64,000 bases of DNA from Micromonospora sediminicola. Lineage in GTDB: Bacteria > Actinomycetota > Actinomycetes > Mycobacteriales > Micromonosporaceae. Below the pieces are notes generated by a model that saw only the letters and a list, made by a program, of their open reading frames with translations, was not told the origin of the DNA and did not search any database. Every line of letters starts with the position of its first letter. Position 1 is the first letter of the stretch. The stretch is taken from positions 2,866,501 to 2,930,500 of the forward strand of contig NZ_FLRH01000003.1 in assembly GCF_900089585.1 (NCBI RefSeq), given 5' to 3'. A program made the position numbers and the translations under genes. This document shows positions 50,782 to 59,432 of this stretch, in pieces.

Positions 50782-51659
50782 GCGCCCACCTCCGCGGCGA
50801 CCGCGGGCCGCGACGCGTGGCTCGACGCCGCCCGCTCCGCGTCGCGCAGCGCGGCCAGCGCGGCGGGCACCAGCGTGTCGGCCCGGTGCGCGTCGCGGGA
50901 CAGTTCGAGGCTGACCAGGCCTCCGTAGCCGACCTGGGTGAGCGCGCCGAGCACGGCCGGGAAGTCGAGGTCGCCCTCGCCGGGCGCGCGGTGCTCGTGC
51001 CGGCCGCGCGGCATGTCCTCGATCGCGCAGGCGCCGAGCCGGCCGGCGAACGCCTGCACCGCGGCGGCCGGCTCGTGGCGGCCGGCCACCAGGCAGTGCC
51101 CGGTGTCCAGGGCCAGGGTGAGGCCGGGCACCTCGGCGGCCAGGCGGGCCCAGTCGTCGCAGTCCTCGACGAGCATTCCCGGCTCCGGCTCGAACGCGCA
51201 GCGCACCCCGCGTCGTTGCGCGTACGCGACGACGTCGTGAACGCCGTCGACGAGCCAGCGCCAGCACCGGTGGCGGTCGGCGCCGGGCTCCGGGACGCCC
51301 GCCCAGAACGACACCGCCTCGCTGCCGAGGCCGGCCGCCACGTCCACGCAGGTGCGCAGGAAGTCACGCCGTCGGACCCGGTCGGTCCCGTCCGGCGACA
51401 CGAGGGTCGGGTGGTGCTTGCGCCGCGGGTCGAGCAGGAACCGCGCGCCGGTCTCGACCACGCTCGCGAGTCCGAGCGCCCGCAACCGGCGGGCCAGCCG
51501 GTCGGTCCGCGCGGCCAGGTCCGCCGCGAACGGGTCGTGGTGTGCCACGTCGAGGGTGAGCGCGACCCCGTCGTAGCCGCAGTCGGCGAGCAGGGTGAGC
51601 GCGTCGTCGAGGCGGTGCGAGGTCAGGCCGTTGGTGTTGTAGGCGTAGCGCAGGGTCAT
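50778..51659 (-). CDS. TIM-barrel sugar-phosphate isomerase/epimerase
   Basis: This 293-residue protein belongs to the xylose-isomerase-like AP_endonuc_2 superfamily. It starts LRYAYNTNGLTSHRLDDALTLLADCGYDGVAL, and metal ligands are expected in CAFEPEPGML, LALDTGHCL and the C-terminal GGLVSLELSRD. Related enzymes isomerise or epimerise sugars and inosose or dehydrate keto-inositols (IolE, IolI). With Gfo/Idh and inositol-phosphate synthase in one operon, action on an oxidised inositol or sugar is plausible. Both ends overlap neighbours by 4 bases. Confidence 0.85.
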   Translation of the reverse strand: MTLRYAYNTNGLTSHRLDDALTLLADCGYDGVALTLDVAHHDPFAADLAARTDRLARRLRALGLASVVETGARFLLDPRRKHHPTLVSPDGTDRVRRRDFLRTCVDVAAGLGSEAVSFWAGVPEPGADRHRCWRWLVDGVHDVVAYAQRRGVRCAFEPEPGMLVEDCDDWARLAAEVPGLTLALDTGHCLVAGRHEPAAAVQAFAGRLGACAIEDMPRGRHEHRAPGEGDLDFPAVLGALTQVGYGGLVSLELSRDAHRADTLVPAALAALRDAERAASSHASRPAVAAEVGA

Positions 51660-53143
51660 CGCCCGCTCCGCTGCACGGCGTGCCGGGTGGGCTCCCGGTA
51701 GAGCGGATAGAGCGGGCCGATCGTGCGGGCCACCGCCGCCAGGTCGAGCCAGGCGTCGGCGGCGCCGAGCCGTTCCCGGCCGGCCTGGTCGAGGACCACG
51801 GGCGCGGCGCCGGCGTGCGGCGGAGTCCCGAGACCGACCAGCGGTGAGTCCCGCTCCCGCAGGCGTTCGATCCCGCGCGCCGCGATCCGTCCGTACGACA
51901 TGGTTTCCGCCTCCAGCCCGGGCACGATCACCTTGGCCACCGTCGCGCCCTCCCCGGGCGCGACGACGACCAGCACGTCGAAGTCGGCGAGCCGGCGCAG
52001 CAGTTCGGCCAGCAGCGCGCCCTGGTCGTCGAGGCTGCCCGGCGCGACGGTGGGCAGCGCGCTGAGGGGCACGCTGTCGCGGCGGGCCAGCACCACCGGT
52101 TCCAGCAGCGCGAGCAGTTGCGCGCCGTCGAGGTGCGTCCAGCCGCGCATGGCGGTGATCGCCCGGCTCTCCTGCGCCTCGGCCGGCCGGGCGAACTCCC
52201 GCCGCCAGTACGCCTGCGGCGCGACCGGCCGCAGCAGGTCCAGCGGTGCGTGCGAGAAGACCTTGCGGGATCGCGACGAGACGTACTCCAGCAGCGCCTT
52301 GCGCAGGGCGACCTCCCGGTCCGGGTGCACGGCCTCGCCGCAGGCGGTGACCGCCAGTGCCGGTGTCTCGGGCTGTCGGTCGATGCCGACCACATGCACG
52401 TCGGGCATGCCGAACGCGGTCGAGGCGAGCTTGGGCAGCACCTCGATGCCGGCGTCCGCCAGGCGGTCCAGCATCAACCGGATGACCGGGTCGTGTACCT
52501 CGTCGACGTCGATCACGACGCCGGCGTCCATGGCCCGGAACGCGGTGGTGTTGCCGTCGCGTTGCAGCAGTTCGAGCAGGCCGTGCGCGACCGCCCGCTC
52601 GACGGTGTCGCCGGCGCCGGAGCCGTTCGTGATCACCGGGATCAGCCGCTCGGCCGGGTCCTGCCACGGCAGGTCGGCGCCGTCCGCCGCGCAGAACTCG
52701 GCCGGCACCAGCACCGTCTCACCGGTACGCCAGCGCAGCGTGGGCAGCCAGGAGCGGGGCTGGTCGTCGTCGACCACCGTGCCGGCCGGCAGGACCAGTG
52801 AGCGGGGATCCACCACCCCGTGCGCACCGACCGCGCCGCGAAGCTCGCGGTAGGAGGCCCGGCGGGGCGTCATCGTCCGCAGGTGGCCGTGCAGCAGCAG
52901 GGCCTCCGCCAGCTCCCCGTACGCGCCGGTGCGGGCCTGCTCGACGGTGGCGCCGTAGCCGACGGCGGCGGCCCGGGGCCAGCCGGCGCCCAGGTGGTCG
53001 GCGGAGATCACCGGTACACCGAGGCGGTCCAGCCCGGACACGTCGAAGTCGCCCACCTCGCCGGCCGGCAGGGCGTCCGCGAGCCGGTCGGCGACCGACC
53101 GGGCCGAGGTGATGGGCGTGCGCGGTTCGACGGCTCGGGTCAT
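51656..53143 (-). CDS. YcaO-domain ATP-dependent enzyme
   Basis: This 495-residue protein carries all three YcaO nucleotide/Mg motifs: GYGATVEQARTGAYGELAE (62-80), NGSGAGDTVERAVAHGLLEL to R195 (173-195), and REVALRKALLEYVSSR (276-291). YcaO enzymes use ATP to activate a backbone amide, forming azolines, thioamides, amidines or similar. The C-terminus lacks the PxPxP tail of azoline-forming members, and no E1-like, ocin-ThiF or TfuA partner is adjacent. No precursor peptide gene is seen, so a small-molecule substrate is possible. ATG 53143 has GGAG 6 bases upstream. Confidence 0.9.
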   Translation of the reverse strand: MTRAVEPRTPITSARSVADRLADALPAGEVGDFDVSGLDRLGVPVISADHLGAGWPRAAAVGYGATVEQARTGAYGELAEALLLHGHLRTMTPRRASYRELRGAVGAHGVVDPRSLVLPAGTVVDDDQPRSWLPTLRWRTGETVLVPAEFCAADGADLPWQDPAERLIPVITNGSGAGDTVERAVAHGLLELLQRDGNTTAFRAMDAGVVIDVDEVHDPVIRLMLDRLADAGIEVLPKLASTAFGMPDVHVVGIDRQPETPALAVTACGEAVHPDREVALRKALLEYVSSRSRKVFSHAPLDLLRPVAPQAYWRREFARPAEAQESRAITAMRGWTHLDGAQLLALLEPVVLARRDSVPLSALPTVAPGSLDDQGALLAELLRRLADFDVLVVVAPGEGATVAKVIVPGLEAETMSYGRIAARGIERLRERDSPLVGLGTPPHAGAAPVVLDQAGRERLGAADAWLDLAAVARTIGPLYPLYREPTRHAVQRSGR

Positions 53144-58205: not shown

Positions 58206-58403
58206 GCTGCCTCCCGATTCGACCGGGTCGTCCGACCCGGGCCGCCGCGTACCCGCGCGACGCCCCGCCAGTCATGCACATCCGTCGAACTCACCGTCCA
58301 CGCGCCGATCCGTCGATTCGCCGGAAAGGAACGGTGGCCTGCGGCCAGGATGCAGATGGCGGCGTCACCGGTCGTGGTGGCGGTCACCCGGGGAGGTCTA
58401 CTG

Positions 58404-59432
58404 GTGAAGGTGCTGATCGCGGGCGGAGCGGGGTTCATCGGCAGCACTGTCGCCTCGGCGTTGACCGATGCCGGACACACGCCGGTGGTGCTGGACAACC
58501 TGGTCACCGGGCGGCGCGAGTTCTGCCGCGGACGGGCGTTCCAGCTCGGCGACATCGGCGACGCCGACGCGGTGGACCGCATGCTGCGCCGGCATCCGGA
58601 CATCGGGGTGGTGGTGCACTGCGCCGCGCTGATCGCGGTGCCCGACTCGGTGGCCCGCCCGGTGGACTACTACCGGGCCAACGTGTCGGCGACGCTGGAG
58701 TTCGTCGACCGGCTACTTGCCCACGGCGTACACCGGTTGATCTTCAGCTCGTCCGCGGCGATCTACGCTCCGGGCGCGGGCCTCGGCGTCGACGAGACGT
58801 CGCCGCTGGAGGCCGGCAGCCCGTACGCGCAGACCAAGCTGGTGGTGGAGCGGATGCTCGCCGACATCGCGGCCAGCAGCCCGCTGCGGGTGCTGTCCCT
58901 GCGCTACTTCAACCCCATCGGCGCGGACCCCGCGATGCGAACCGGGCTGCAGACCGCGGTTCCGTCGCACGCCCTGGGCCGGCTGATGCTCGCGCACCGA
59001 GCCGGTGTGCCGTTCGCGGTCAACGGGCTCGACTGGCCCACCCGCGACGGCTCGGGACTTCGCGACTACGTGCACGTCTGGGACCTGGCTGTGGCACACC
59101 TGCGGGCACTGGAACGCTTCGACGACATCTTCGCCGTCGGTGCCGCTCCGCACGTGGCGGTGAACCTGGGCAGCGGCACCGGCACCACCGTGCTCGAACT
59201 GGTCGCGGCGTTCAACGCGGTGGTCGACCGGCCGGTCCTGGTGCGGGAGGCGCCGCGTCGGCCCGGCGACGCCGCCGGCGCGTACGCCCGGGGTCGCCGG
59301 GCCCGTGAGTTGCTGGGCTGGCGGGCGCGACGTGACCTCGCCACCGGCATCGCCGACTCACTGGCCTGGCACGACCGGCGCGAGCGGCTTCTCGGGGATC
59401 TGGCACCGCGCCGTCGGCAACTCGCTGGCTGA
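58404..59432 (+). CDS. NAD-dependent nucleotide-sugar epimerase (GalE-like)
   Basis: This 342-residue SDR-family epimerase has the cofactor motif LIAGGAGFIGSTVA at the N-terminus, the catalytic SSSAAIYA serines, and GSPYAQTKLVVE (YxxxK). The core LSLRYFNPIGADP is typical of UDP-glucose 4-epimerases. GTG 58404 has GGGGAGG about 7 bases upstream. It is divergent from the inositol/YcaO operon across 198 bases, so a shared regulatory region and a role in making the GT4 donor are likely. Confidence 0.88.
   Translation: MKVLIAGGAGFIGSTVASALTDAGHTPVVLDNLVTGRREFCRGRAFQLGDIGDADAVDRMLRRHPDIGVVVHCAALIAVPDSVARPVDYYRANVSATLEFVDRLLAHGVHRLIFSSSAAIYAPGAGLGVDETSPLEAGSPYAQTKLVVERMLADIAASSPLRVLSLRYFNPIGADPAMRTGLQTAVPSHALGRLMLAHRAGVPFAVNGLDWPTRDGSGLRDYVHVWDLAVAHLRALERFDDIFAVGAAPHVAVNLGSGTGTTVLELVAAFNAVVDRPVLVREAPRRPGDAAGAYARGRRARELLGWRARRDLATGIADSLAWHDRRERLLGDLAPRRRQLAG

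Follow-up and report, generated by a model that had tools for sequence, protein, structure and literature searches.

A divergent YcaO protein with an altered ATP site, encoded in an inositol/aminosugar-type operon of three bacterial phyla, may act on a small molecule

Introduction

What defines YcaO enzymes is that they use ATP to activate the backbones of peptides and proteins. All members characterized so far act on a peptide or a protein, with peptides, McrA and uL16 as substrates, and the authors of the uL16 study considered that uncharacterized YcaOs may act on proteins (PMC13063428); Cox et al. set aside the non-TOMM YcaOs of unknown substrate (PMC4603692). The closest described relatives of the protein analyzed here are the methanogen enzyme MjYcaO (MJ1094), which is linked to the thioamide of an McrA glycine, together with the TfuA-linked YcaOs, the azoline cyclodehydratases SagD, TruD and LynD, and Escherichia coli YcaO, which is involved in uL16 thioamidation. 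A search of the literature by name and by role, in which few subscription papers were covered, found no publication joining a YcaO with an inositol synthase or a PIG-L protein.

Here we describe a ycaO gene from a stretch of 64,000 nucleotides of the Micromonospora sediminicola genome (the window), for which an earlier note had proposed a small molecule as the substrate of the enzyme.

Results

Operon organization

The region assigned in the earlier note to a YcaO enzyme encloses an ORF of 495 aa on the minus strand (53143..51656), which is gene 6 of nine genes that extend on the same strand from 58205 to 48701 (Table 1; start codons were chosen by comparison among loci). Since neighboring genes overlap by 4 bp in seven pairs and are separated by 2 bp in one, the run contains no space for a precursor gene, as had been claimed. 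The description of the locus as a sugar/inositol operon was borne out by the Pfam assignments and by a match of 291 bits between the Ino1 homologue, in which the GKDxKxGQT motif is conserved, and the inositol-3-phosphate synthase 7nwr in the PDB. The Gfo/Idh/MocA dehydrogenase had 1,5-anhydro-D-fructose reductase as its top PDB match and inositol 2-dehydrogenase as its top NCBIfam match, the latter well below threshold, while D-inositol-3-phosphate glycosyltransferase was the second PDB match of the GT4 protein, and glycopeptide N-acyl-glucosamine deacetylases were the PDB matches of the PIG-L protein. In the MBL-fold protein, a zinc ribbon of the form CxxC..CxxC is present and the metal motif is reduced to SHxH from the usual HxHxDH. 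Ratios of dN/dS between 0.08 and 0.38 across the operon genes indicate purifying selection, and the value for ycaO against its closest relative (0.23) lies inside the range of its operon neighbors. A UDP-glucose-4-epimerase-like gene at 58400-59432, divergent from the operon, was seen in Micromonospora loci only.

Table 1. Genes of the ycaO operon in the window, listed in operon order
Product	Position	Strand	Remarks
Inositol-3-phosphate synthase homologue (Ino1), 392 aa	57027..58205	-	First operon gene; Pfam NAD_binding_5 5e-60, Inos-1-P_synth 6e-33
HD-domain protein, 308 aa	56104..57030	-	Weak Pfam HD_3 match
SAM-dependent methyltransferase, 382 aa	54959..56107	-	Pfam Methyltransf_25 1e-9
Gfo/Idh/MocA dehydrogenase, 330 aa	53970..54962	-	Pfam 4e-26 and 6e-23
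MBL-fold protein with N-terminal zinc ribbon, 275 aa	53140..53967	-	Pfam Lactamase_B 9e-6
YcaO, 495 aa	51656..53143	-	Pfam YcaO 7e-51, tree, active-site columns, predicted structure
Xylose-isomerase-like TIM barrel (sugar isomerase/epimerase), 293 aa	50778..51659	-	Pfam AP_endonuc_2 6e-38
GT4 glycosyltransferase, 413 aa	49540..50781	-	EGFSNTILEA motif; Pfam 5e-35
PIG-L family N-deacetylase, 280 aa	48701..49543	-	PHLDD motif; Pfam PIG-L 5e-17

The AlphaFold model of the HD-domain protein (pLDDT 86) matched HD phosphohydrolases over residues 126-308 with Z scores of 11-12 and predicts a helical N-terminal part followed by a YfbR/HDDC2-like HD fold. The protein has H194-H195 instead of the His-Asp doublet, and H162, H165, H194, H195 and D261 are invariant in all 17 copies. 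By its predicted structure it would thus have a fold of the nucleotide phosphohydrolase type with His-His in place of His-Asp. A role as a ring cleaver resembling myo-inositol oxygenase (MIOX) was considered and seems less likely, since the model matched YfbR/HDDC2-type phosphohydrolases and no MIOX was found among the matches listed.

The inositol phosphate synthase, GT4 and PIG-L families of the operon are also those of the mycothiol pathway (Ino1, MshA, MshB), but the operon proteins scored far below the equivalog cut-offs for these enzymes (39 vs 638 bits for Ino1, 78 vs 462 bits for MshA and 16.5 vs 224 bits for MshB). Canonical mycothiol Ino1 and MshA, which exceed the cut-offs, are encoded elsewhere in the genome; the operon copies are therefore dedicated paralogues, and mycothiol synthesis was rejected as the role of the operon. 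The ebo cluster is widespread and functions in scytonemin precursor export in Nostoc. Ebo-type clusters of actinobacteria and Gemmatimonadota contain homologues of the operon's Ino1 (43-45%) and TIM barrel (48-50%), the TIM barrel of Streptomyces ebo clusters being 50% identical to that of the operon. However, the operon has none of the EboA, EboE, UbiA-like prenyltransferase and TatD genes of the ebo cluster, and no YcaO was present in the ebo clusters viewed. We regard the ebo-type clusters as a separate system that has only Ino1 and the TIM barrel in common with the operon.

Family assignment and phylogeny of the YcaO protein

The YcaO protein matched the Pfam family PF02624 over residues 62-411 with 173.9 bits (cut-off 25.7), and its AlphaFold model (pLDDT 89.6) displays the full YcaO fold with the M. 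jannaschii YcaO as the closest structure (6peu; Z 33.6 over 362 residues, 2.8 Å). Because family profile and fold both place the protein there, it is a divergent member of the YcaO superfamily. The genome (6.9 Mb) encodes one further YcaO (L053 7772-14416, in the region C3:3236000-3255999), whose neighbors are a radical SAM gene encoding a B12-binding-like domain and a gene for an M16-type peptidase; this second locus is possibly a RiPP cluster.

A phylogeny, proposed in the earlier note as a check, was calculated from 48 YcaOs, comprising 18 operon proteins, two stray members encoded outside the operon and 28 references that were mostly actinobacterial and were chosen without specific regard to the known YcaOs of bottromycin and streptamidine. 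The operon and stray YcaOs formed a single clade (support 100/100, stem of 1.49 changes per column) that belonged to no sampled RiPP clade and lay outside the sampled TfuA, azoline, McrA and E. coli uL16 branches. MJ1094 and the TfuA-linked YcaOs constituted the adjoining, weakly placed branch, and the exact position of E. coli YcaO is unsure because its own branch is long.

Although MjYcaO thus shares the fold with the operon YcaO and is its top PDB match as well as a member of its nearest tree branch, the operon protein reached only 85 of the 365 required by the NCBIfam model methan_mark_1, is encoded among carbohydrate genes and has no TfuA partner. The tfuA gene adjoins those TfuA-branch reference YcaOs for which flanking sequence was available, while no TfuA homologue was found in the 64-kb window or in the operon loci. 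Likewise, the YcaO fold is common to SagD, TruD, LynD and the operon YcaO, but the latter lacks an E1-like partner, a fused domain and a PxPxP end, stands apart from the azoline-type branches and scored 89 bits against a SagD family cut-off of 219 bits. E. coli YcaO resembles it in fold and in having no precursor nearby; nevertheless, the tree separates the two widely, the match stops before the C-terminal third of the E. coli protein, and the ATP residues differ.

The claims that the enzyme has neither a PxPxP tail nor an E1-like, ocin-ThiF or TfuA gene beside it held, since the C-terminus ends in LYPLYREP, a sequence conserved in the clade, and the operon proteins included no match to an E1-like or ocin-ThiF family. 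No protease or exporter family was found among them either. When short ORFs of 20-150 aa outside called genes were collected from about 20 kb around the gene at 25 loci and compared across lineages, as the earlier note had suggested, none was conserved across lineages, and three weak pairs were at chance level. Of the two outcomes that the earlier note had named as refuting its proposal, grouping with a known RiPP clade and a conserved short ORF close to the operon, neither was thus obtained with the clades and loci sampled.

The gene for each of the two stray members (f18 genomes L042 and L052) follows, at a distance of 3 bp, the second of the permease genes for a sugar ABC transporter; a polysaccharide-deacetylase-like gene comes directly after it, and glycoside-hydrolase-like genes are near. 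Their neighborhoods contain no other operon genes and their genomes no HD gene, and they retain the active-site residues of the clade.

Active site

We take E75, E78, E191, E199 and R203 of E. coli YcaO to be residues of the ATP/Mg site. A further ATP-site residue is E202, the E202A variant of which was used in the uL16 study, and in E. coli YcaO with replaced ATP-binding residues the thioamidation of uL16 was incomplete (PMC13063428). The corresponding alignment columns, which are gap-free around motif 2, were compared between the 20 clade members and the 28 other YcaOs. Position 202 is Glu in 28 of 28 others and Gln in 20 of 20 clade members (Q194 in the numbering of the window protein), and the Glu at position 191 is likewise lost throughout the clade (20/20), being replaced by Arg, His or Phe. 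The remainder of the canonical set (E. coli E75, E78, E199 and R203) is kept, the residues retained in the clade being E77, E80, E191 (equivalent to E. coli E199), R195 and E286 in window numbering. Further changes concern the positions of E. coli K61 (Tyr or Phe in the clade), R286 (K282 in the window YcaO) and Q293 (Ala, Ser or Gly). The earlier claim of a full set of three YcaO ATP motifs therefore has to be corrected: motif 1 (E77, E80) is intact, but motif 2 (E202 to Q194, E191 lost) and motif 3 (R286 to K282, Q293 lost) are altered. At the same time the clade has acquired invariant residues of its own, among them N198, R203, D206, K238, C268, E270, K282, R293 and K294 (window numbering).

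Kept active-site residues, new invariants and purifying selection together argue for refitting rather than decay, and judged from these sequences the operon YcaO looks like a refitted enzyme. With the Glu202 and Glu191 equivalents lost, the enzyme may not use ATP in the customary way.

Distribution of the operon

The operon was found at nine Micromonospora, three Actinomycetospora and four Geodermatophilaceae loci (including Modestobacter) and in six genomes of f18, another actinobacterial family. Plasmid-borne copies came from Roseomonas haemaphysalidis, Methylobacterium aquaticum, M. bullatum and Hymenobacter volaticus. The operon spans three bacterial phyla with its gene order kept and few losses, some of the loci being cut by contig ends, and YcaO identity to the window protein is 42-60% between lineages. 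The methyltransferase gene is absent from the operon copies of Hymenobacter and locus L051, and the MBL-fold gene was not found on the two Methylobacterium replicons. In Actinomycetospora cinnamomea the TIM barrel, GT and PIG-L genes form a separate three-gene set on another contig, and thus the two halves of the operon stay together in this genome though unlinked. Next to each half lies a gene that resembles a regulator (IclR-like by eye); the two are similar and are located downstream of ycaO (L012 11556-12497) and upstream of the TIM gene (L091 8556-9491).

Among 151 Micromonospora genomes the operon YcaO is present in a patchy set of eight, and exactly these eight also carry the HD gene. 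The same coincidence was observed in the f18 family, where the HD gene occurs in exactly the six genomes with the operon and is absent from three with a stray YcaO, and on the four plasmids that bear the operon YcaO; over 190 genomes, the HD gene was present only where a YcaO of the operon clade occurs. Such patchiness, and the fact that plasmids carry the operon, suggest horizontal spread.

Two unrelated copies of the Gfo/Idh gene (L003 13063-14111, from Hymenobacter, and L037 11958-12934) carry a frameshift around codon 180. Both shifts lie close to G/C runs, though not in the same sequence, and they resemble sequencing errors or the results of decay, not programmed shifts. Two copies of spore photoproduct lyase genes, with uvsE nearby, lie near the Roseomonas operon (L004 20822-22943), and a related gene lies near the operon of one f18 genome (L037 18863-19978). 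Such neighbors in two lineages, together with the air- and surface-dwelling habit of the hosts, are hints of a role in UV or desiccation. Methylobamine, a UVA-absorbing compound of Methylobacterium, was considered as the product of the operon and set aside as a lead only; the papers found to cite it give neither its structure nor its genes.

Discussion

The best reading of these observations is that ycaO belongs to an operon that has spread horizontally and is dedicated to the biosynthesis of a small molecule of the cyclitol-aminosugar type. Since carbohydrate enzymes are its conserved partners in three phyla, and since the stray members occur in a second, independent context beside a sugar transporter, a small-molecule, non-peptide substrate of the operon YcaO is favored, with a probability of about 0.6 that does not extend to the exact reaction. 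The proposal of the earlier note is thereby supported in part. We lean slightly, and a little less firmly, towards the fuller statement that this is the first YcaO with a natural small carbohydrate or cyclitol as substrate, and that it works with a remodeled ATP site (E202Q, E191 lost) as part of a pathway spread by plasmids and present in three phyla.

In a pathway of this kind, Ino1 would make inositol-3-phosphate, and the HD protein might remove the phosphate from this compound or from an intermediate further along. Oxidation and re-setting of the cyclitol, by way of an inosose-like species, could then fall to the Gfo/Idh dehydrogenase and TIM-barrel isomerase, the GT4 protein would attach an N-acetylhexosamine from which the PIG-L protein would remove the acetyl group, similar to MshA and MshB in mycothiol synthesis, and the methyltransferase may cap the product. 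The YcaO, which may activate an amide or a carboxylate, as had been suggested earlier, would transfer a phosphoryl group to a carbonyl of this small molecule (an N-acyl amide or a carboxylate), which a nucleophile would then attack. Because the operon encodes neither TfuA nor a sulfur-transfer protein, we would guess that O-to-N chemistry, i.e., the formation of an amidine, a cyclic imidate or an amide, is a little likelier than the formation of a thioamide.

Several points stand against a small-molecule substrate. The nearest structure and the nearest branch are those of peptide- or protein-modifying YcaOs, membership in an operon is no proof that the substrate of the YcaO is a pathway intermediate, and, by analogy with E. 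coli YcaO, a missing nearby precursor can mean that the substrate is a structured protein encoded elsewhere. The operon YcaO might accordingly modify a structured protein of the host at its backbone, for example an operon enzyme that needs the modification, as in the cases of uL16 and McrA. E. coli YcaO indeed modifies uL16 without a nearby precursor (PMC13063428), and the clade is nearest to the branch of MjYcaO, the closest solved fold, which modifies McrA. However, it is far from both E. coli YcaO and MJ1094 and has no TfuA, and an operon protein is an improbable substrate for the stray members, since operon genes are missing from their surroundings and the HD gene from their genomes while their active-site residues are kept. 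The second carbohydrate context, in which the stray members lie and which contains no peptide genes, speaks more strongly than any other single point against a substrate that is a peptide or a protein of the operon, and we consider modification of a host protein unlikely.

Equally doubtful is the view that the protein is catalytically dead or a YcaO fold that does not use ATP, serving as a scaffold or in a different, ATP-free reaction. It would account for the replacement by Q194 of a Glu that is invariant elsewhere and for the loss of the Glu191 position, and it agrees with the incomplete thioamidation after replacement of ATP residues in E. coli YcaO, of which E202A is a mutant (PMC13063428), but it is opposed by the invariance of E77, E80, E191 (E. 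coli E199), R195 and E286, by the new invariants C268, E270, R203, D206 and K282 and by purifying selection. Least probable is a RiPP pathway with a precursor peptide elsewhere in the genome or missed, for although most known YcaOs work in RiPP clusters and precursors at distances over 10 kb escape detection (Cox et al.; PMC4603692), no cross-lineage short ORF was found within about 20 kb at 25 loci, and the operon has conserved carbohydrate partners instead of an E1-like, protease or exporter family.

If a small molecule is indeed the substrate, this clade, with its long-standing ties to enzymes for inositol and aminosugars, would extend the YcaO superfamily into small-molecule chemistry, and the operon would point to an undescribed metabolite common to bacteria of three phyla. 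Moreover, with Gln naturally in place of an ATP-site Glu, the clade lends itself to tests of the YcaO mechanism.
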